Below the pieces are notes generated by a model, which worked only from the letters and a program-made list of their open reading frames with translations, ran no database searches and was not told where the DNA came from. From Nitrospirota bacterium (GTDB lineage: Bacteria > Nitrospirota > Thermodesulfovibrionia > Thermodesulfovibrionales > SM23-35), in NCBI GenBank assembly GCA_040754395.1, contig JBFMCL010000002.1, positions 124,001 through 188,000 of the forward strand: a DNA stretch of 64,000 bases. The letters are read 5' to 3'. Both the position numbers and the translations under genes were made by a program. This document shows, piece after piece, positions 42,834 to 55,985 of the stretch (positions are counted from its first letter, which is position 1; every line of letters starts with the position of its first letter).

Positions 42834-44534
42834 GTGGGATTCTATAATGACAGACGGCTTTTCAGACGGTACCGGCAGACGACGGATTTCTATGTAATCA
42901 TCGATGCCAATTACTACAAGGCAGCCACTGTCGATTTCTCTCTCAGCGGCCTCTGCATTTTTATCGAAGGAACTCCTCCCCTGCGCCCCAATTCCTTCAT
43001 TGATCTGAAAATCGAGGGACTGGATATCGATATACGGGGCAGGGTGATATGGGTTCAGCAGACAGACCAGAACCTTCTCGTCGGCATCGAAAAGATGGCG
43101 ATCGCCGGTCTTCTCAGGATATGCCCCCTTTCGCATATCCTTCTCGATCTGCAGAGAAGCAATGTGACCGGTGTTCTCGAGATGGAAAAGCGCCCTGTCC
43201 TGAAACGCATTTACATAAAACACGGGGTGATGGTATTCGCTGCCTCGAATCAGCATGAGGACCGCTTTGGTGAACTGCTTCTGAAGAGGGGAAGGATAAC
43301 CTCTGATCAGCTTCACCAGGCAGCAGTCCTGCTTTCTTCATCCGGGAAGCGCCTCGGAACAATTCTCGTTGAACTCGGCTACCTGAAACCCGACGAGCTC
43401 GTAAGGGCACTGAAGTATCAGGTCGAGGAGATCATCCTGAGTCTTTTCAGATGGCAGGAAGGGACAGTACGGTTCCTTGCGGGACCGTTGCCGGATGAGA
43501 TTATCACATTCAGGCTGAGCGCGGCCAATCTCATTTTTCAGGGGATCAAAAGAATAACCCAGCCGGAATATTTCAGGAATATCTGCCCTCCGCCTGACAC
43601 CATTCTGTACTTCTCGAACGACCCCCTGAACCTTTTCCAGGACGTCAGTCTTTCAGAAGAGGACAGATATGTGCTCTCCCTGCTGGATGCAAGGCTGACC
43701 CTAAAGGAAATCATTGATCTCTCTTCGCTGGAAAAGTCCAGGACAATAAAGATCATCAGTGCATTGTTCAGTATCAGCATGATAGAGAAGAAAGGGGAAA
43801 AAATACTTGCCGACAGGACTATTGTAAAAACAATAAGTGAACCGCAAAAAGCGGTTGACTCTGCCTTTCTGGAAAATGTCAGCGATCTGTGCAGAAAATT
43901 TCCCTCAATGGATTACTACAGCATCCTCGGGATCAGTAGCGGGGCATCACTCAAGCAGATACGGAAGGCCTACTATGCGATGGTAAAGGAATTTCATCCC
44001 GACAGGCATATCAGTGCAAGTTCCGGGATGCTGAAAAGCAGATTGAATGAAATATTATCCCATGTCATTAACGCGTACAGGACTCTGTCGGATTCAGAGC
44101 TGAGGGCGCACTATGATGATACGCTGAAGGTCCGCCGGCCTCCCGAGGCTCCGGACGTGACAAAGAAAGCCGTTACCGCGCGTGAACGTTTCATCCAGGG
44201 CAAAGAGGCATTGAAAAATGGCCTGTATGAGGATGCGGCAGAATTTCTGGGACAGGCCGTATATCTTGACAGTTCTATGGCAGAGTATCATAGCTGCCTC
44301 GCGATCGCATACCGAAAGCTGAAGAGACTGCGTGATGCGCAGAAAGAGATGCAGAAGGCTCTTGAAATCGATCAGACCGTCGCAGACTATTATGCAGAGA
44401 TCGGGGAAATTTACCTCGAACTCGGGCTGCCCTTAAGGGCAAGGGCATCTTTTGAGAAGGCGCTGAAGACAGATCCGTCGCACAAAAGGGCGGCTGACAG
44501 GCTCAAGATGCTGGATACCGGGAAACATGGATGA
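42834..44534 (+). CDS. PilZ-PATAN(DUF4388)-J domain-TPR protein
   Basis: This 566-residue protein combines four parts. Residues 1-90 form a PilZ domain with the c-di-GMP signature intact: an arginine-rich RRLFRRYRQ and the DFSLSG motif about 30 residues later. Residues 95-235 match a DUF4388/PATAN domain (LLLDL-like start, GVLEMEKRPVLKRIYIKHG, FGELLLKRGRIT). Residues about 360-425 are a DnaJ J domain with the HPD motif (EFHPDRH). Residues 450-560 are TPR repeats (AAEFLGQAVYLDSSMAEYHS and on). The start is GTG 42834 behind AGGTGG; an upstream GTG at 42825 lacks a ribosome site. It could couple c-di-GMP level to Hsp70-dependent assembly of surface machinery; that role is inferred. Confidence 0.85.
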   Translation: MGFYNDRRLFRRYRQTTDFYVIIDANYYKAATVDFSLSGLCIFIEGTPPLRPNSFIDLKIEGLDIDIRGRVIWVQQTDQNLLVGIEKMAIAGLLRICPLSHILLDLQRSNVTGVLEMEKRPVLKRIYIKHGVMVFAASNQHEDRFGELLLKRGRITSDQLHQAAVLLSSSGKRLGTILVELGYLKPDELVRALKYQVEEIILSLFRWQEGTVRFLAGPLPDEIITFRLSAANLIFQGIKRITQPEYFRNICPPPDTILYFSNDPLNLFQDVSLSEEDRYVLSLLDARLTLKEIIDLSSLEKSRTIKIISALFSISMIEKKGEKILADRTIVKTISEPQKAVDSAFLENVSDLCRKFPSMDYYSILGISSGASLKQIRKAYYAMVKEFHPDRHISASSGMLKSRLNEILSHVINAYRTLSDSELRAHYDDTLKVRRPPEAPDVTKKAVTARERFIQGKEALKNGLYEDAAEFLGQAVYLDSSMAEYHSCLAIAYRKLKRLRDAQKEMQKALEIDQTVADYYAEIGEIYLELGLPLRARASFEKALKTDPSHKRAADRLKMLDTGKHG

Positions 44535-44556: not shown

Positions 44557-47500
44557 TTATCTAAGCCCTCTATTTTTACTGCGTTCGTACCGTTCTTCAG
44601 TATGCATGCCAGTCTGCTTATCTGGTGCAAGTGCATTAAACAGTCTTTCAACTTCTTCTGCGGGTAATGGTTTACTGAAGTAATACCCCTGTCCCATATC
44701 ACATTTCAAAAGGCGCAGGAACTTCCACTGTTCCTTAGTCTCCACCCCCTCCGCAATTATTTTCAAATTAAGCGCATGTGCCATATTGATGATAGCCATT
44801 ACGATTGATGCAGAATCAGGATCATTCACCATTTCTTTGATAAATGTTATATCTATTTTCAGATTGTCGATTGGGAATCTCTTCAGATATGCCAATGACG
44901 AGTACCCGGTCCCAAAGTCATCAATAGAGACTGAAACTCCTATATCCTTAAGTTCCTTGATAACCAGGCTGGTAATTTCCACATTCTGCATAAAGGCGCT
45001 TTCTGTTATTTCCAGGGTAAGGAGCGAAGGATAAAATCCACTTTCTCCCATTATCTTCTTCACCCTCTCAGCCAGATTCTTTTGCCTGAATTGTATTGGT
45101 GAGATATTCACCGAGACTGGTACTACAGGATACATTTTATCCTGCCATTCCTTCACCTGCCTTATCGCTTCTTTCAAACTCCACTCCCCAACCTCAAGAA
45201 TCATCCCTGTTTCTTCCAACACGGGAATAACCTTCTCCGGAGGCACTAACCCCTTGTCCTTTTTTTGCCACCTGATAAGGGCTTCCATCCCTATTATTCT
45301 ATTTGTAGTTATATCCCAGTACGGTTGATAATGGAGAATAAATTCCTTTTTCTCATGGGCTATTGCAAGTTCCTTTTCCAGCGATATTATTTCTGCTGCC
45401 CTCAAATCCATATCTTCAGTATAAAACTGGAACGATTTCCTCCCGTTCTTCTTTGCAGTTGATAGTGCCAATCCGGCTGATTTCAGAAGTTCAGCGGCAT
45501 TGTTTCCGTCTGAAGGATAAAAAGAAATACCGGTATTGAATGACAGTCTTATTTTCTCATTTTTTACCGTTATATTCTGTGTTATATCCTTTATAATCTT
45601 TTCTAAAATTAAAATAATATCATCAACGTGACCTATATTAATAAGTGCTATGCCGAATTCATCGTTACCCAGCCTTGCTGCGATATTTCCTGTTTGGATA
45701 CTATGTGATAGTCTCTCCCCGACTGCTTTTAAAATATCATCGCCAAACGCATGTCCGTATGAGCCACTGATAAGTTTAAATCGCTCAATATTAACAACTG
45801 AGACCGCAACATTCTTTGAGGTGTCCTTTGTTCGAACAATGGCCTGGTTAACCCTCTCAATGAACAGATTTCTATTGGGGAGCCCTGTTAAAGAGTCATA
45901 ATACGCGAGATACTCAAGCTGCCCCTCCATTTGTTTCCTCTCTGTGATATCTCTGAAAGTAACGACTGTTCCGGTAATCTTGTCATTTTCTTCTATAGGG
46001 GTACTGGTATATTCGACCGGGAAAAGTGTGCCATCTTTTTTCAAAAACAGTTCATGATTGACAGTTTGGACTGCGCCATCATGAAGAGACGCATGTATCG
46101 GGCAGTCTTCTTCAGGATAAGTATTTCCATCAACCTGTTGAGAGTGCCAGATACTGTGAGTGTCCTTGCCTATGAGTTCATGTGGTGCATATCCGAGCAT
46201 TCTTGCCGCAGCCGGGTTAACGAATGTGTGGTATCCATTTTTATCGAGTCCTAAGATGCCTTCTCCCGCCGAGTTCAGAATAAGCTCATTCCTGTGGCTC
46301 AGCTTTTTTATAGTCTCCTCCGAATGCTTTCGGTCAGTGACATCTCTGCCTACCCCACTAATGCCAATGGTTTTTCCCTTGTGGTCTTTCAGCACTGATC
46401 CCCTAAAATCATATGGCATATGTCTCCCGTCTTTAGTGATAAGTGCTGCCTCAACAAATCCCTCACCCTCCTTATATATTGTCTCAATTGCTTCAGTCAA
46501 TCTTTTGGCATCTTCTTCAGAAAAGAAATCAGGCACTTTCATCGAAGATACTTCTTCATCGCTTAACCCTAATACTGTATTCGCTGCCTTGTTCCACCTG
46601 AGCAACTTACCTTCCAGATCAAAAACAAAGAATAAATCCTTCAGATTATTCAATGCGTTTTCAGTAAAATGCTTTTCTTGTTTCAGCTCCTCCACCGCAC
46701 ACCGGCGCTCGTCTCTTGCATGCAATGCCATGATGCCATATGAAATTTCCTTTGAAAATTGAATAAGCAAATTGACCTCCTGTTCGTCAAATGCATAGGG
46801 ATGAGAAGCATAAATATTTAAAGTGCCAAAGACTCTTGCGTCCGCAATGAGAGGAAGTGAAATGCATGACGCATAACCGCGCTTGATCGCCTCTTTGCGC
46901 AGGAAGGCATGGTGTTCATCTGATAGCATATTGCTGATAATGACTGGTTTGCCCGTTCTGATTGCTGTACCTGCGGGATTTTTTCCTCTTTCATCGTCGG
47001 CCCGGGAAGTATTCAGGGCCGCAAGATATCCTTCGTCATATCCTGCATGGGCGACAGGATTGACACTCTCTGCCTCATCTACCCCGGCATAGCCTATCCA
47101 TGCCAGGCAATAACCTCCGGTCTCAACGAGAACCTTGCACATGCCGTTCAGCAGCTCGTTCTCTTCGGTAGCATGCACTAATATCTGATTGCATTCACCG
47201 GCGGTCTTGAGTGCCCGGTTTAAAATGTGCAAATCCTTAATTCTTTTTGCAAGCTCAGAGGTTCGTACCTGAACTTCGACTTCAAGATCGTCATGCGATT
47301 TCTTAAGTTCTGCCGACATCTGCTTTTGCTCTGTGATATCCCGCGCTACGGAAAAAATCAGCTGCTCTTCAACCAGCGGATAGCAGTTCCATGAAACCCA
47401 TTTATAAGAACCATCCTTGCATTGATAGCGGGTTTCAAATGTAACCACCGATTTGCCTTTCTTGAGTCTGTTTGCCATATCGATTGCCAATTCCCTGTCT

Positions 47501-48438
47501 TCAGGATGAATGAATTCAAGATACGGTTTAGACATCAGTTCTTTTTGTGTCCAGCCAAGGGTTTTTTCCCAGGCCGGGTTTAACTGCTTGAAGAATCCGT
47601 CGAAACCGGCAATGCAAAACATGTCGATTGAGAAGCTGAACAGGCGTTTGCGTTCCACCTCTGCACGATTGCGCTCGGCAATCTCATTCCGGATGATTAC
47701 AACAGAGACGACCACGATAATAACCGCCAGAAGCAACCCTGACATCACAATAAAAGATGTTGCACGACCCAGCAATCTCAATGTTTCATCATGCTGGTTA
47801 AGGAGCCTGGTCTCTTCAGTTACAAACTCATCAATTACCTTGTCGATATTTGTCATCAACTGCTCACCTTTTCCAGTCATAACCAGGGTTTGGGCAGCAA
47901 CTCGCCCCTGTTTCCTCCGGATTTCAATAACTTGTCCATTATGTTCGGTCATTTGCGCAATGAGGAGTTCGAGTGCTGCGATACTCTTCTGCTGTTCAGG
48001 CTCTCTTGAGGTTGATTCCCTGACAGTTTTTATCCTCCAATGAATTGTCGCAATCTTGGAATGGTAATGGGCTAAGAGTTCTTCCTGCCCGGTAATGACG
48101 TAACCTCGCTGATCGGACTGAATATCGTTAAGAAGGGAATTCACTTCGACAATATCGGCAATAACTTCATAGGTTTGCTTGCGCAAATCGGCAGAGGCAG
48201 AAAAATCAGATATAAATACTTGAGAGGCAATACTGATCATAACAAGAACGAGCAATCCCAGCCCAAAGCCGATACCCACCTTGGTTTCTATGTCGCGTTT
48301 CACTGTCAATCTGTCTTGTTGAGAATCGTCGTTATCAGTTTTCTGCCCCCTAAATGACCTGAATCCAGCGATACGCATCGCCAAACGTTTGATAAACGTG
48401 TCATTGCTTTTTGTCCGATCAATTTTTTTGTCCATCAT
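44557..48438 (-). CDS. CHASE3-PAS-GAF-PAS-PAS-GGDEF-EAL c-di-GMP phosphodiesterase
   Basis: This 1293-residue membrane sensor carries, in order: helix 1 (about residues 55-77), a CHASE3-like helical domain (80-215), helix 2 (228-250), PAS (260-385), GAF (405-560), PAS (585-700), PAS (715-840), GGDEF (850-1010) and EAL (1025-1270). The GGDEF part reads RLGNDEF and has lost acidic residues in the metal region (VNIERFKLISGSYGH), so it is probably inactive. The EAL part keeps EALIRW, VNISPIQF, LEITES, DDFGTGYS, LKID, AEGVET and GQGYYFSKP, so active hydrolysis of c-di-GMP is predicted. It is the last gene of the sigma-54 operon, 23 bases after the glycosyltransferase. Confidence 0.9.
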   Translation of the reverse strand: MMDKKIDRTKSNDTFIKRLAMRIAGFRSFRGQKTDNDDSQQDRLTVKRDIETKVGIGFGLGLLVLVMISIASQVFISDFSASADLRKQTYEVIADIVEVNSLLNDIQSDQRGYVITGQEELLAHYHSKIATIHWRIKTVRESTSREPEQQKSIAALELLIAQMTEHNGQVIEIRRKQGRVAAQTLVMTGKGEQLMTNIDKVIDEFVTEETRLLNQHDETLRLLGRATSFIVMSGLLLAVIIVVVSVVIIRNEIAERNRAEVERKRLFSFSIDMFCIAGFDGFFKQLNPAWEKTLGWTQKELMSKPYLEFIHPEDRELAIDMANRLKKGKSVVTFETRYQCKDGSYKWVSWNCYPLVEEQLIFSVARDITEQKQMSAELKKSHDDLEVEVQVRTSELAKRIKDLHILNRALKTAGECNQILVHATEENELLNGMCKVLVETGGYCLAWIGYAGVDEAESVNPVAHAGYDEGYLAALNTSRADDERGKNPAGTAIRTGKPVIISNMLSDEHHAFLRKEAIKRGYASCISLPLIADARVFGTLNIYASHPYAFDEQEVNLLIQFSKEISYGIMALHARDERRCAVEELKQEKHFTENALNNLKDLFFVFDLEGKLLRWNKAANTVLGLSDEEVSSMKVPDFFSEEDAKRLTEAIETIYKEGEGFVEAALITKDGRHMPYDFRGSVLKDHKGKTIGISGVGRDVTDRKHSEETIKKLSHRNELILNSAGEGILGLDKNGYHTFVNPAAARMLGYAPHELIGKDTHSIWHSQQVDGNTYPEEDCPIHASLHDGAVQTVNHELFLKKDGTLFPVEYTSTPIEENDKITGTVVTFRDITERKQMEGQLEYLAYYDSLTGLPNRNLFIERVNQAIVRTKDTSKNVAVSVVNIERFKLISGSYGHAFGDDILKAVGERLSHSIQTGNIAARLGNDEFGIALINIGHVDDIILILEKIIKDITQNITVKNEKIRLSFNTGISFYPSDGNNAAELLKSAGLALSTAKKNGRKSFQFYTEDMDLRAAEIISLEKELAIAHEKKEFILHYQPYWDITTNRIIGMEALIRWQKKDKGLVPPEKVIPVLEETGMILEVGEWSLKEAIRQVKEWQDKMYPVVPVSVNISPIQFRQKNLAERVKKIMGESGFYPSLLTLEITESAFMQNVEITSLVIKELKDIGVSVSIDDFGTGYSSLAYLKRFPIDNLKIDITFIKEMVNDPDSASIVMAIINMAHALNLKIIAEGVETKEQWKFLRLLKCDMGQGYYFSKPLPAEEVERLFNALAPDKQTGMHTEERYERSKNRGLR

Positions 48439-49544: not shown

Positions 49545-49940
49545 TTACTCCTCCTTTTTGGAGTTCAGGTAGTACAGATGAGATATTTCCTCTCTCAACT
49601 GTGGAGATGCCATGATCACCTGTGTTGGCATTGTGTTGCAGCACAGCAAATTCTCCAAAATGGTATTCGTCATCGCAGCCGTCAATTCGGGGGAAGCAGG
49701 TATTGTTGGATAGTTATAGCTTTTCCCTTCGGCTGAAAGTTTATCGACCTCTGCCCTGAAAGTTGAATCAGTTTCTATGACAGCCGCAGTGGGTTGTGTG
49801 TATTTCGTAACAAAATCATTTACGAATACACCAGCCCCTGTCAATCCCAAAACAGCAACCAGTATCGGATACTTGATCAATAAGTGAATAACCAGGCTGC
49901 AAGTACCCATGAGACCGCTCGTTCCTAATCCGTATGCCAT
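49545..49940 (-). CDS. small membrane protein of unknown function in the EPS operon
   Basis: This 131-residue protein has one or two hydrophobic stretches at about residues 8-42 (LMGTCSLVIHLLIKYPILVA and on), then a soluble part of about 85 residues with two adjacent cysteines (LLCCNTMP). AGGAGGTAAACA precedes the ATG. It lies 3 bases after the exported protein gene and adjoins the glycosyltransferase gene. I recognise no family. By place it may be an accessory subunit of the polysaccharide synthase, for example a partner for the glycosyltransferase; this is inference only. Confidence 0.7.
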   Translation of the reverse strand: MAYGLGTSGLMGTCSLVIHLLIKYPILVAVLGLTGAGVFVNDFVTKYTQPTAAVIETDSTFRAEVDKLSAEGKSYNYPTIPASPELTAAMTNTILENLLCCNTMPTQVIMASPQLREEISHLYYLNSKKEE

Positions 49941-49943
49941 TGT

Positions 49944-50402
49944 TTACCTCCTGTTTTTCCAATCCCCTCCAGCTGACCACTGAAGGAAGGCTACTGCTCT
50001 CCAGGCATTATTAGACGAATCATTGAAGTATCCGAAGTACTCACCGCGGATACCAAGATCAATCACCCCCCAATTGTTTAGACCGGCTTTGAGTGGATGC
50101 TTGACTTTCCCCCCGAAAACCGGCCTCCACCTGTTGTTCCAGAAATCATTGGTATGATCTGATTTTGTGAGACCGATTCCGGCAAATGTGTTTAGCACAA
50201 AATCCGACTCCCCTAATTTCATCCAGTCAATTCCCTGTTCAACGTACATGTCGAGCTTTGAACCTCTCTCTATATCGTTGCTCGGAGTAAAAGAAAGTTC
50301 TCCCCATGAATACCAGGGATAACCGAGTATCTCGGCTGTTGCTTGATGACTGAATACTGAAACTGTCATCAAGATTACCAAAACTGCCAGGCACCTTTTC
50401 AT
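49944..50402 (-). CDS. small exported protein, first gene of the EPS operon
   Basis: A signal peptide covers residues 1-23 (LAVLVILMTVSVFSHQATA). The mature part (about 128 residues) is rich in aromatic residues in short strands (GYPWYSWGELSF, NNRWRPVFGGKVK, GIRGEYFGYF), suggesting a beta-barrel or carbohydrate-binding outer membrane protein. It ends FLQWSAGGDWKNRR. AAGGGAGGTTTCA precedes the ATG. It is the first gene after the sigma-54 promoter at 50473-50488. I recalled a loose likeness to outer membrane partners of glycosyltransferases (such as NfrA-type C-terminal domains), but could not confirm it. Confidence 0.7.
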   Translation of the reverse strand: MKRCLAVLVILMTVSVFSHQATAEILGYPWYSWGELSFTPSNDIERGSKLDMYVEQGIDWMKLGESDFVLNTFAGIGLTKSDHTNDFWNNRWRPVFGGKVKHPLKAGLNNWGVIDLGIRGEYFGYFNDSSNNAWRAVAFLQWSAGGDWKNRR

Positions 50403-50836: not shown

Positions 50837-53800
50837 TTATTTAACAACTATGTCTCCCTGAGCAATTGGCATCGGTACAGTCTTGTTGGCTGACCACTTG
50901 CTGGAGAACCAAACCCCGCCTGCTTTCCTCTGCAGAGTCATGGCAATGGTATCACCATTTCCATTTGCCTGATTACCATCCTTAATGTGGATTTGCAACT
51001 GTGCCCCGCCCTCTATTGCGATAGAGTTGGCCGGATCCGTAATATCAACGAGATTAGCCTTGCTGCTGAAACTCGCTGTTCCGGATGGTTTCTGCACCGT
51101 CAATACTGCAATAGCCGTGCTCTTGATCTTATAGGTGCGAAGCACATTACCTATTGAACCGTCAGGTTTATAGTAACTGCGCACAGTGATATTGACAGCC
51201 CCCTGGGGATTCGCGCCACTCTTGTTATACTTTACGTCAAATGAAAAATCCGTTGACTGGCCTGCTGCGCCGGCAATATACCCTCTGGAGTCTGTTCCAT
51301 TTGTTGTCTTGCCGCCTCCAATAATCCATCCATTATCCAACGGTTTTGCAACCGTGACAATCGTGTCGTGAACCGGATTATTGAGAAGATAGCCGCCGCC
51401 GACAATTACAGCGATGTCAAGTGATGTTACATAGGCATTGCCCATATTGTACTGAACGATTGCACTCGCGGTTCCTACCTTCCTGTCGTCTGGATTCACA
51501 AGGCCAACAGGCAAATTTGCAGCCCCGTTGATTGGTGTATATAAACCATTTGAGTTGCGGATTGCAAATGTTACCCTTGCATTGCGGATATCACTGGTGC
51601 ATACCTGATCAACATCCTGAATCGTAGCGCTTAAGGCAAGCGAAACAGTATTGCTGTTCGTTGTTACCGTTGTCCAGAAGAATACATTGCCTGTATACAC
51701 CGCCTGACCGGCAAGTGGCCCAACTTTAGCTGCGTTAATAGTGAAGCTCTGTGATGTGGTGCTATTGGAATAGATGTCATCGGGACCGAATGAGACACTT
51801 ACCTGATACGTGCCGGGCATATTCGCAGAACTCAGCGTCATGCCTGTTGCTGCAACCCCATTGGCATCTGTTACTGCGCTGGCTGTAGCTGCACCAATCA
51901 TGAAGTTAATCGTCTTGCCCGCAATGCCTGAGCCAGAAGTGTCATCGGTTAGCCTGGCAGAGACTCTCACGCAATCAGAATACAGTCCTGCAGATTGTCC
52001 CTGATATACCAGCGTTGTCGGTCTCTTGTCTATTGTCAGCGCACCGTTATCAATCGTGACTGAATAGTTGTTCAACTTGCTGTTTGGATCATGCAAGGAC
52101 GGTGTGATCGTATACGTCCCCACAGGACTGGACTGTGTCGCAGTTGTGCTGTAGCTTGCAGTAATGCCATCGCCGTTCACAACGCCGGTAAGCGAACCGC
52201 TCAGTGCCGGGTTCGGCTCACCGTAAATCCTGTTCTTATCATGAGCAATGACAGTGAGTGATTTCTTATTGATGGCAAATGAACGGTCTACATCAGACGC
52301 CGCATTGTAATTTGCATTACCCGCCTGCGAGGCCCTTATGGTGCATGTGCCTGGCTCCACAATCGTGACCGTCGTGCCGGATACTGTGCACTTAGCCGCA
52401 GTCAAGCTGCTGAAGGCCACCGTCAATGACGATGAGGCTGTTGCGCTCACCGCAAAGGGCGCATCACCATACGTCCTGTCGGCAAGTGTGCCAAATGTGA
52501 TTGTCTGATCTGCCTTATTGATGGTTTCTGTTTGATTGGCAGATGTAAGCCCGGTAGCTGAAGCAGTGATTGTCGGCGCACCAGCATTCAAATCTTTATA
52601 GTAGAAACTCGCCGTATTGCCTGTGGAGAGGATCGTTACGCTTGTGATGGAACTTGTGCAGGAGGCATCGCTATAAAATGTTCCGCCTCCGGAGGAGCTG
52701 CTCAGATTAACTGTCATATTACTTGTCGGGTTGGTTGGCGTATTGCTGGCGTCTTGTGTTTGTACTGTTATTTGTGGTGAGCACTCTCCAACAGTCCTTG
52801 TGAATACAGTGGATGTAAAGGCAAGCTTGGTGGGATCTAAAGAATTAACAGTATATGTCGCACTTCCAACTATGTTGCCCGGGGCGCAAGCTCCGCTATT
52901 GCCAGTTTTGCAAATGAGAACTGTATGACTCGCTGCAGTTACGGGGGTATATGAGTCACACACATTGTTTGTGCCCGACGATAAATTGCCTGACACGGTG
53001 TCTCTCACCAAAGTTGAAGAATCAAATGTGGTCGTACTTTTATACCATTGCATACGATAAGCCGCGGTGCCACCTCCAGTAACTGTAACCGAGGATTTTG
53101 CACTTACCTGACTGCCCAAAATGAAAGATGTTGATTCTGATGTTGTGGGGGGACAATTAGAACTATAATTATAGATTGTTGTTGTGGCGCCACTTATACT
53201 GGCTGCTATTTTATACGGCCCCACATATGGCCCTCCGCCTGCCTCAACACCGGCCGGCTGTATTTCATCAAGCCCCGTATCCGCCATTGCCGCAGCCATA
53301 TTCACGCGGCCGTTTCCGGTCTGCTCGTGCGTGCCTGCAGGATCTGCAGTGCGCGCGAGACGCCCCACGATTACCCCATTGGTGAGGGTTGGGTCATCAG
53401 CCTTCATAAAAGCCGCGACACCTGCAACAATTGCCGCTGATGCAGATGTTCCGTTCAGGGATACAATGGAATTTTCAAGACCGGTCGTTGCAATGTCCTC
53501 TCCTGGTGCTGCGAGAAACACGCTCTGCCCAAAGTTGCTGAAAGAGGCGAGGTTGTCAGAATAATCTGTTGCTGAAACCCCGATAACTCCGCGGGCACCA
53601 GCCGGAAACGTTGGGTCGCTTATTCCTTCATTTCCCGTGGCTGCCACTAAAACGACATTCTTTGACCATGCATAGTCAACCGCTTCCTGGAGAAAAGGGC
53701 TGAAGCCGGGGTTGCTGAAACCCATCAGGATTACGTCAGCACCGTTATCTGCTGCCCAGATAATGCCACTTATGATATCGCTGTCCTGGCCTGTGCCGTC

Positions 53801-54445
53801 AGCGTTCATTACCGTAACGGGCATTATTTTCACTCTGTCCAGACCGATACCGGCTATGCCATAGTTGTTGTCAGTGATAGCGGCGATTATGCCGGCAAGC
53901 CATGTGCCATGACCATGGGAGTCGCTCAGGCCGTGAGAATCATCAAGAAAAGACCTGCCCATGATAACGTTTGCGGCAAGGTCTTCATGGTTTGCCTGAA
54001 CTCCCGTGTCAAGAATGGCAACTTTTGATGATTGCCATGGGAAAAGGATACCATAGACAAGGTCCCAGCCTATTTTCGACAGGGCCCACTGAAAGCCGTA
54101 ATCGGGGTCAGCGGGCATACCCTGCACCTCCCTGATTTTATCCTCTGCGGCACTCTCAACCCTCGGGTCAGACTGGTAGTTCTCCAGGATTGTTGAAAGT
54201 TGGTCTGCCTGAACCTCGACAACATGAAGGCGCAGCGCCGGAATCGAAGAAGTCTCAGTACCCCCGTTTGCATGAATGACGGCGGCCTGTTCATACGCAG
54301 AAAGGCCGCTTACCATCCTGATGATCAGCGATGAGGTAGAGGATGGCTGTTCGGCCATGGCGTGGGAAAATAACCCTCCCGCTATCATCAAGACCAAAAG
54401 AAAAACTGCAAATCGCCTGAGATACAAGAATTTGTTACTGAACAT
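50837..54445 (-). CDS. large secreted subtilisin-like protease with MBG/Ig-like repeats
   Basis: The 1202-residue protein starts with a signal peptide (residues 1-31, ending HAMA) and an I9-like pro-region (about 38-105). The S8 domain (115-390) has an intact triad: Asp146 in AILDTG, His179 in HGHGT and Ser near 336 in NGTSASA, with the oxyanion Asn in ATGNEG. After it come Ig-like and MBG-type domains (FGTLADRTYGDAPFAVSATA near 650; RIYGEPNPALSGSLTGVVNG near 735), an invasin-like repeat and a final unassigned domain. No LPXTG, PEP-CTERM or T9SS tag is seen. A strong AAGGAGG site precedes the ATG. The protein is likely surface-bound or secreted and may process matrix proteins. Confidence 0.9.
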   Translation of the reverse strand: MFSNKFLYLRRFAVFLLVLMIAGGLFSHAMAEQPSSTSSLIIRMVSGLSAYEQAAVIHANGGTETSSIPALRLHVVEVQADQLSTILENYQSDPRVESAAEDKIREVQGMPADPDYGFQWALSKIGWDLVYGILFPWQSSKVAILDTGVQANHEDLAANVIMGRSFLDDSHGLSDSHGHGTWLAGIIAAITDNNYGIAGIGLDRVKIMPVTVMNADGTGQDSDIISGIIWAADNGADVILMGFSNPGFSPFLQEAVDYAWSKNVVLVAATGNEGISDPTFPAGARGVIGVSATDYSDNLASFSNFGQSVFLAAPGEDIATTGLENSIVSLNGTSASAAIVAGVAAFMKADDPTLTNGVIVGRLARTADPAGTHEQTGNGRVNMAAAMADTGLDEIQPAGVEAGGGPYVGPYKIAASISGATTTIYNYSSNCPPTTSESTSFILGSQVSAKSSVTVTGGGTAAYRMQWYKSTTTFDSSTLVRDTVSGNLSSGTNNVCDSYTPVTAASHTVLICKTGNSGACAPGNIVGSATYTVNSLDPTKLAFTSTVFTRTVGECSPQITVQTQDASNTPTNPTSNMTVNLSSSSGGGTFYSDASCTSSITSVTILSTGNTASFYYKDLNAGAPTITASATGLTSANQTETINKADQTITFGTLADRTYGDAPFAVSATASSSLTVAFSSLTAAKCTVSGTTVTIVEPGTCTIRASQAGNANYNAASDVDRSFAINKKSLTVIAHDKNRIYGEPNPALSGSLTGVVNGDGITASYSTTATQSSPVGTYTITPSLHDPNSKLNNYSVTIDNGALTIDKRPTTLVYQGQSAGLYSDCVRVSARLTDDTSGSGIAGKTINFMIGAATASAVTDANGVAATGMTLSSANMPGTYQVSVSFGPDDIYSNSTTSQSFTINAAKVGPLAGQAVYTGNVFFWTTVTTNSNTVSLALSATIQDVDQVCTSDIRNARVTFAIRNSNGLYTPINGAANLPVGLVNPDDRKVGTASAIVQYNMGNAYVTSLDIAVIVGGGYLLNNPVHDTIVTVAKPLDNGWIIGGGKTTNGTDSRGYIAGAAGQSTDFSFDVKYNKSGANPQGAVNITVRSYYKPDGSIGNVLRTYKIKSTAIAVLTVQKPSGTASFSSKANLVDITDPANSIAIEGGAQLQIHIKDGNQANGNGDTIAMTLQRKAGGVWFSSKWSANKTVPMPIAQGDIVVK

Positions 54446-54568: not shown

Positions 54569-55882
54569 TTACACATACACATGCTCAAAAGTTACCTTAT
54601 CAATGAACATCCCAACAAGTTCCGGGTCAAACTGGGTTCCTGCATTGCTCTTCAGTTCCCCGACTGCCTCCTGAAATTCAACAATAAATGGATTTACACC
54701 ATTACCATGCATCTTTCCCTTGCATTTGTATGAATCCTTGCTCACCATCACATCAAATGCCTCTGCAATTGCGATAATTCTGGACTCAAGAGGGATTTCT
54801 TGACCTTTCAATCCCGAAGGATACCCTGCACCGTCATATCGTTCATGATGGTACAGGACAATTGGTGCAATGTGAGCATAAAAATTTATCGATCGCAGCA
54901 TTTCATAGCCAAGCTGGGGATGTGTTTTATAGTCATTTTTGGTATTTGAATTTTTCAGGTATAAGTTGTTGAGAAAACCAATATCGTGGAGCAGGCATGC
55001 GGTATACAACTTTTTTTTCTCACTCTCGGGCATGTTCATCGCCTGTGCAATCGAAAGACTGTATTTTGCAACTCTTTTTGAATGCCCCCGTTTTTCTATG
55101 TGACTGTCGATGGCATTCAGCAAAATATCTGTGAGATGGATCTCGAAATTCTTCTGATCCTCATAAAATTTTGCCATGTCAATCGCCAGGGCAGCCTGAT
55201 TCGCAAAATACGTGAGGACTTCTGCATCCTTCTCAGCAAATAAATTCGAATTTTTATTCAACAGTTCAATTACGCCGATCACGCCTGTGCTTAACTTCAA
55301 TGGTGCGCAAAGGATGGACTTGGTCTCATACCCTGTCAGCCTGTCTATTTCAGGATTGAACCGGACGTCCTGTCTGACATCATTAACAATTACCGGCTCG
55401 CCGATTTGCACAACCCTCCCTGCTATCCCTTCGGTTTTTGGCACAGAAACCCCTTGCAGTTTACTGCTCTCCGGTCCTTTTACATTCTTAAAGACAAGCC
55501 TGTCTTTATCAACTATCATGATAGACCCTGCATGAGCGTCAGTTATTGTTAATGCATGTCCCAGTATTTTCTCCAACAGAATATCCCCGTGTTTTTCTTC
55601 CTTTATATCCAGTGTAAAATTAAGCACGTCATCAAGCTTTCGACTGTAATCCTCTATCTCGTTTGCAGCCTGCCTCGAAACCTTGTTTGATAGATAAAGA
55701 CCTATGACACTCAGGAACGCACAAAATGAGAGCATTGCTACTATTGAAGGATTTGTAATAAAGTCCCATTCGTAGTACAAGAAGCGCAAAACGAGAAAGA
55801 GTAATGCAAGGACAATGAGCGCCACAATATAATTAAGCAGTTTGATCTTTTCCTTAATGGTATCTATTACTTTTGTTTTCAC
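54569..55882 (-). CDS. membrane GAF/HD-GYP domain protein (c-di-GMP phosphodiesterase)
   Basis: With the GTG start at 55882 (AGAGGTG upstream) the protein has 437 residues: two membrane helices (about 17-36 and 46-66), a GAF domain (105-245; DAHAGSIMIVDKDRL, AGRVVQIGEPVIV) and an HD-GYP domain (265-415). The HD-GYP part has HDIGFLNNLYL, the HHERYDGAGYPSGLKG motif and AIAEAFDVMVS. These ligands are typical of HD-GYP enzymes, which split c-di-GMP or cGAMP. The gene is next to a sigma-54 site (copy B) and the NtrC-type activator. A longer start at 55963 is also open. Confidence 0.88.
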   Translation of the reverse strand: MKTKVIDTIKEKIKLLNYIVALIVLALLFLVLRFLYYEWDFITNPSIVAMLSFCAFLSVIGLYLSNKVSRQAANEIEDYSRKLDDVLNFTLDIKEEKHGDILLEKILGHALTITDAHAGSIMIVDKDRLVFKNVKGPESSKLQGVSVPKTEGIAGRVVQIGEPVIVNDVRQDVRFNPEIDRLTGYETKSILCAPLKLSTGVIGVIELLNKNSNLFAEKDAEVLTYFANQAALAIDMAKFYEDQKNFEIHLTDILLNAIDSHIEKRGHSKRVAKYSLSIAQAMNMPESEKKKLYTACLLHDIGFLNNLYLKNSNTKNDYKTHPQLGYEMLRSINFYAHIAPIVLYHHERYDGAGYPSGLKGQEIPLESRIIAIAEAFDVMVSKDSYKCKGKMHGNGVNPFIVEFQEAVGELKSNAGTQFDPELVGMFIDKVTFEHVYV

Positions 55883-55985
55883 TAAACACCTCTTGATGCG
55901 ATTTTTTCTGACAAGCACCAGATACGATACAACGCTATATCGCCCTTCAACACTGCCAGACATCCTTTAAATCATTCATTGATAT

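Follow-up and report, generated by a model that had tools for sequence, protein, structure and literature searches.

A Nitrospirota protein joining PilZ, PATAN, J and TPR domains as a candidate c-di-GMP-responsive co-chaperone of DnaK

Introduction

Can the second messenger c-di-GMP act on the Hsp70 machine through a J-domain protein? The usual targets of c-di-GMP effectors are enzymes, motors or transcription. The question is raised by a gene in a stretch of 64,000 nucleotides from a Nitrospirota bacterium (GenBank assembly GCA_040754395.1, contig JBFMCL010000002.1, positions 124,001 to 188,000 of the forward strand; hereafter the window), in which a sequence-only reading had noticed a PilZ c-di-GMP sensor fused to a DnaJ module. 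A widespread J co-chaperone with an intact predicted c-di-GMP site would put Hsp70 directly under the messenger, and whether c-di-GMP controls chaperones could then be tested with a pair of purified proteins and one point mutant.

Gene and domain organisation

The coding sequence occupies positions 42834-44534 of the forward strand (566 codons plus stop) and begins with a GTG, directly 5' of which stands a GAGGTGG stretch. An alternative in-frame GTG is located 9 bases upstream of 42834, and the N-termini of relatives align near 42834. The gene stands alone: 245 bases separate it from the end of an upstream flavodoxin-fold gene, and the GGDEF-EAL gene downstream is convergent with it.

Domains were called with Pfam profiles, all of them above the curated gathering score. 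From the N-terminus, we found a PilZ domain (residues 6-86, positions 42849-43091; PF07238, 43.3 bits, E-value 4.8e-11, cut-off 22.5), a PATAN domain (DUF4388; residues 92-242, positions 43107-43559; PF14332, 71.3 bits, E-value 9.4e-20, cut-off 25), a J domain (residues 360-428, positions 43911-44117; PF00226, 55 bits, E-value 9.1e-15, cut-off 27.8) and TPR repeats (about residues 455-555, positions 44196-44498), for which several Pfam families exceeded their cut-offs (TPR_2 with 47.5 bits and an E-value of 1.1e-12, TPR_8 with 39.9 bits and an E-value of 2.9e-10). Every one of the four domains proposed beforehand was thus confirmed by profile search and in the proposed order, and judging from its sequence the 566-residue product is one soluble, cytosolic protein with the arrangement PilZ, PATAN, DnaJ, TPR. 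The proposal had overlooked two things, an MshEN-like insertion within PATAN and a sister family devoid of PilZ. The PATAN residues span profile positions 2-119 of PF14332 and are split by this helical insertion at residues 144-196 (positions 43263-43421), which we refer to as the clip and which was recognised with NF053729, PDB matches and hhalign. PATAN proteins include PatA and PixE, and the best studied are the PATAN-REC response regulators. The window protein resembles PatA- and PixE-type proteins in having a PATAN domain with a helical insertion, and differs from PATAN-REC regulators in that its PATAN domain sits between PilZ and the J-TPR part.

Conservation of the PilZ motif and of the J domain

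To assess conservation, we used a set of 40 PilZ-bearing proteins comprising the window protein and its relatives from the same genome and from others of the class, the relatives being approximately 30-55% identical to the window protein. The two parts of the PilZ signature, claimed to be intact, were located at R8xxxR12 (positions 42855-42869) and D34xS36xxG39 (positions 42933-42950) and are near-invariant in this set (R8 in 39/40, R12 in 40/40, D34 in 37/40, S36 in 40/40 and G39 in 39/40). Mean column entropy in the PilZ domain was 0.16 bits at these five positions versus 2.44 bits in the remaining columns. At an E-value threshold of 0.001, PilZ was matched in 30 of 33 relatives and DnaJ in all 33. 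Since the five motif residues are near-invariant and the rest of the domain has diverged, the ligand site is apparently what selection keeps, and as far as an alignment can tell, this is how a selected ligand-binding site would be expected to look. An intact motif is no proof of binding: PlpA has the residues and is reported as non-binding (PMC8316039).

The HPD motif of the J domain, likewise claimed to be intact, was found at H388-P389-D390 (positions 43995-44003) and is kept in 40/40 PilZ-bearing homologues, in which the other J-domain signatures (DYY, AKEFHPDR/K, AYxTL and RxxYD) are also kept. A structure model of the isolated J domain, built from a 5-row alignment, has a mean pLDDT of 78.9 and four helices. 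In the PDB it matches J domains best, 5nro (a J domain bound to DnaK) among them. In this model HPD falls at fragment positions 36-38, between helix II (21-34) and helix III (46-67). The sequence-only reading was to be given up if the HPD loop proved inaccessible in a predicted structure, and at the level of the isolated domain this ground does not apply; the full-length model predicted from a single sequence was unusable (mean pLDDT 36) and was set aside. Nor, at domain level, does the other ground, a failure of the PilZ or J profiles, both domains being confirmed by profile and by deep conservation.

Against the canonical DnaJ model (TIGR02349) the protein scored 49.5 bits for a cut-off of 377.2, and the match was confined to the J domain; with the G/F and zinc-finger parts missing, it is a class C type J protein. 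As for a possible partner, the host genome (2.98 Mb in 75 contigs, 99.96% complete) encodes one full-length DnaK, the remaining HSP70-family matches being short stretches.

An MshEN-like clip within PATAN

The clip matched the MshEN c-di-GMP motif model NF053729 over its full positions 1-53 (53.6 bits, cut-off 38). All 14 PDB sequence matches of residues 144-196 were to GSPII/MshEN-bearing proteins (MshE, PilF, PilB), and hhalign aligned the clip with MshEN segments of proteins from the same genome with a probability of 98.6% and an E-value of 6.5e-15. On these sequence comparisons, homology of the clip to MshEN is firm. It shares with the MshEN/GSPII domains of MshE, PilF and PilB (PMC5013675, PMC12002112) the 53-residue double motif with its exact spacing, a significant sequence and profile similarity and a nearly complete half-motif 2. 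It differs from them in being inserted in PATAN, in missing the equivalent of Gln32 and in having no MshEN_C subdomain detectable with Pfam in the window protein.

In MshEN, each 24-residue half-motif, RLGxx(LVI)(LVI)xxG(LVI)(LVI)xxxxLxxxLxxQ, holds half of c-di-GMP (PMC5013675). Half-motif 2 of the window clip deviates by a Tyr at one core position and ends with Q196. In half-motif 1, F145, A164 and L167 replace the contact residues L10, L29 and Q32 of MshE, and one core position holds an Arg. When held against the pattern of two intact half-motifs (equivalents of Gln32 and Gln61 and the Leu clusters; PMC5013675), the window protein therefore fails. Family-wide, the Gln32 equivalent is absent in 76/76 compared proteins, the Gln61 equivalent is kept in 72/76, and half-motif 1 usually has Tyr in place of Leu25. 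GSPII-A of PilF, in which both Gln are lost and the motif deviates otherwise, does not bind c-di-GMP (PMC12002112). Given this precedent and the deviations of half-motif 1 at contact positions, we decided against calling the clip a bona fide c-di-GMP receptor and treat it as an MshEN homologue rather than a proven c-di-GMP site; to judge from its residues, a clip with a partly lost first half-site may no longer bind the messenger.

PATAN proteins are numerous, and the homology of the clip to MshEN offers a structural guess for the ligand, or for a contact with a PilB-type ATPase, of other members. Separately, we noticed that L172 (contig C27 of genome G000, a 345-aa frame) carries, within about residues 140-252, a run of at least four MshEN half-motifs spaced by approximately 29 residues and followed by a Pfam MshEN match, which would make it an array of c-di-GMP motifs and not a single pair.

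Distribution of the family and the sister without PilZ

The host genome holds three full-length PilZ-bearing paralogues. Further members occur in most families of the host's order as well as in further orders of its class; among the matches listed, the PilZ-bearing form is confined to that class. This bacterial family is conserved and apparently uncharacterised, and its complete architecture has been retained over a long time. A single-protein search of genome contigs returned just one distant PATAN relative, and viral contigs gave matches only to J domains of other proteins.

A sister protein, about 480 residues long, shares the PATAN-J-TPR arrangement and has no PilZ. Other classes of the host phylum have it too, and PATAN-J-TPR matches were also obtained in the phylum of a Holophagales MAG. 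Among the matches listed outside the class, almost all start after the PilZ region, the exception being a frame with an internal stop that starts at model position 52. In most genomes examined, the sister gene adjoins mtnA-like, polyprenyl synthetase, AMMECR1-like and moaC-like genes (names read off translations, not from profile searches). A tree built from the PATAN-J-TPR part places 40/40 PilZ-bearing proteins on one side of a split with a support of 1.0 and a length of 0.60. A single PilZ-less protein, L128, is nested among them, which on the tree topology is best read as a loss of PilZ. The PilZ-less proteins (L093-L130) keep HPD in 35/36 cases but have often lost DYY in helix I and RxxYD in helix IV, so that their J domain may not be a normal activator of DnaK.

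The two forms were compared in 22 genomes carrying both. Mean pairwise identity of the clip was 0.43 in the proteins with PilZ versus 0.79 in those without, the corresponding values being 0.48 versus 0.50 for the J domain and 0.44 versus 0.48 for TPR. Compared with the J and TPR columns, the clip had an entropy excess with a P of about 1e-10 in a rank test in which neither columns nor genomes are independent. PATAN-b and the middle region are likewise relaxed in the PilZ-bearing proteins. With an E-value threshold of 1e-6, NF053729 matched 20/20 PilZ-less and 17/33 PilZ-bearing proteins, the window protein being the best among the latter. The near-equal J and TPR values in matched genomes argue against the low conservation of the clip being mere older divergence of the PilZ-bearing proteins, although the clip is not the only region that is relaxed. 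With the clip diverged and J and TPR near-equal, these sequence comparisons suggest that the sensory half was reworked upon the gain of PilZ and the J-TPR output retained. Of the two input modules, the clip is probably the older one, nearly unchanged in the PilZ-less sister and relaxed after PilZ was gained.

Proposed mechanism and alternative explanations

Taking domain content and conservation together, we predict that the window protein is a class C J-domain protein that responds to c-di-GMP and serves the cell's one full-length DnaK as a co-chaperone, a reading that we regard as evenly poised between right and wrong. The genes for c-di-GMP turnover nearby and the PilZ-DnaK chaperones of Myxococcus favour this reading; the solitary position of the gene, the PlpA and CsdK2 precedents and the Gln missing from the clip count against it. 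As the PilZ motif and its conservation suggest, c-di-GMP would bind PilZ. Binding would alter the arrangement of PilZ and PATAN, their shape or their partner, and this could in turn change the client-holding state of PATAN and TPR or the reach of the J domain. A client would be held by TPR, in line with the general role of these repeats, together with PATAN, and the J domain would then trigger ATP hydrolysis by DnaK on the client held there. Our weak guess, made by analogy, is that the client might be a surface machine controlled by c-di-GMP, of which PilB, the motor of the type IV pilus, would be one example. PilB is named first since cyanobacterial PATAN response regulators bind PilB1; DnaK1/DnaJ3 at the cyanobacterial motor and the homology of the clip to the N-terminal domain of PilB-type ATPases also point to a pilus or surface machine.

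Alternatively, c-di-GMP might set the location and not the activity of the protein. PilZ and PATAN would then dock at a machine under c-di-GMP control, the type IV pilus motor for instance, where the J domain would recruit DnaK constitutively. Such docking, which we consider possible and on the unlikely side, agrees with the binding of PilB1 by PATAN response regulators in Synechocystis (cited in PMC9090330), with the recruitment of cyanobacterial DnaK1 to active pilus motors via PilB (PMC9239167) and with the homology of the clip to the N-terminal domain of PilB/MshE ATPases, those of the host genome included. Pilus genes speak on both sides. Nearly every genome of the class has a strongly scoring PilM homologue, and family f10, which is without the PilZ-PATAN-J-TPR protein, has only weak PilM matches; yet families f3 and f12 have strong PilM matches and no such protein, and the PilZ-bearing loci have no pilus gene as a conserved neighbour. 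Dependence on type IV pili judged via PilM was set aside as a test, PilM being nearly universal and hence not discriminating.

The protein might instead be an ordinary J-TPR co-chaperone in which PilZ is merely structural, which is improbable in view of the entropy of its motif (0.16 bits versus 2.44 elsewhere in the domain), as expected if a ligand site is selected. Still more improbable is a PATAN/TPR signalling scaffold devoid of chaperone activity, in which the J domain would be a relic or serve purely as scaffold: the frequent loss of DYY and RxxYD in the PilZ-less sister despite a kept HPD would fit such a role, but the J domain is canonical throughout the PilZ-bearing family (HPD in 40/40, Pfam DnaJ in 33/33). 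The co-chaperone reading that we prefer can also be extended to a protein with two inputs, one of which was exchanged: an ancestral PATAN-J-TPR protein would have read c-di-GMP, or a PilB-like partner, via the clip, and PilZ would later have taken over sensing. This extension is rather unlikely by our own estimate. If it were true, c-di-GMP would reach the DnaK cycle directly by way of a J protein, and clip and PilZ would provide two affinity ranges in those proteins that keep most of both motifs, the window protein included.

Comparison with known systems

The four-domain order had been put forward as not known from a described system. We found no paper treating PilZ, DnaJ and PATAN together in the open-access literature, and to this extent the claim stands; fusions of PilZ to chaperones, however arranged, are already on record (PMC10313047, PMC8316039). 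CsdK1 and CsdK2 of Myxococcus xanthus are PilZ-DnaK chaperones, and the interaction of CsdK2 with its client is independent of the c-di-GMP motif in its PilZ domain (PMC10313047). Like them, the window protein has an N-terminal PilZ on a component of the Hsp70 machine and links a c-di-GMP effector to a chaperone. In CsdK1 and CsdK2, however, PilZ is carried by Hsp70 itself, whereas in the window protein it belongs to a J co-chaperone that also contains PATAN, TPRs and an MshEN-like clip; moreover, CsdK1 lacks half of the c-di-GMP motif, which is intact in the window protein. Of the M. xanthus PilZ proteins, 4/24 carry a DnaK or DnaJ domain (PMC8316039); they share with the window protein the co-occurrence of PilZ with a chaperone-machine domain, and the text consulted gave no function for the DnaJ type. 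In Nostoc punctiforme, DnaK1/DnaJ3 acts at the pilus motor through PilB, and the accessible part of the source describes no PilZ or c-di-GMP input for it (PMC9239167). The joining of PilZ to the Hsp70 machine is thus known, and the arrangement of a J domain with PATAN and the clip appears to be new.

Genomic context

We compared the gene neighbourhoods of the PilZ-bearing loci and found no conserved operon partner that is general across them. In small lineages, a RodZ-like HTH gene lies upstream and a nuclease-like gene downstream, which is uninformative. In some relatives, the gene directly upstream was read from its translation as REC with a PilZ-like tail or REC-GGDEF (L058, 7301-7960, forward strand; L075, 8274-9218, reverse strand).

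The host genome is rich in c-di-GMP components, with 38 PilZ matches and nine MshEN (Pfam) matches. Within the window, the convergent gene downstream (44557-48438, reverse strand) encodes a CHASE3-PAS-GAF-GGDEF-EAL protein whose GGDEF site reads GNDEF and whose EAL is seemingly intact, so that its product is probably a phosphodiesterase. About 10 kb from the PilZ-PATAN-J-TPR gene, a gene at 54569-55963 (reverse strand) encodes a protein with GAF and HD-GYP-type domains (HHERYDGAGYPSGLKG), from its sequence a likely second c-di-GMP phosphodiesterase. No c-di-GMP riboswitch was found within the 64-kb window, the search giving only a tRNA.

Two small proteins encoded next to a glycosyltransferase (49545-49940 and 49944-50402, both on the reverse strand) had no Pfam or NCBIfam match over the cut-off. 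The gene at 50837-54445 (reverse strand) encodes a 1202-aa subtilase with an MBG_2 domain, by its sequence probably a large surface or secreted protease.
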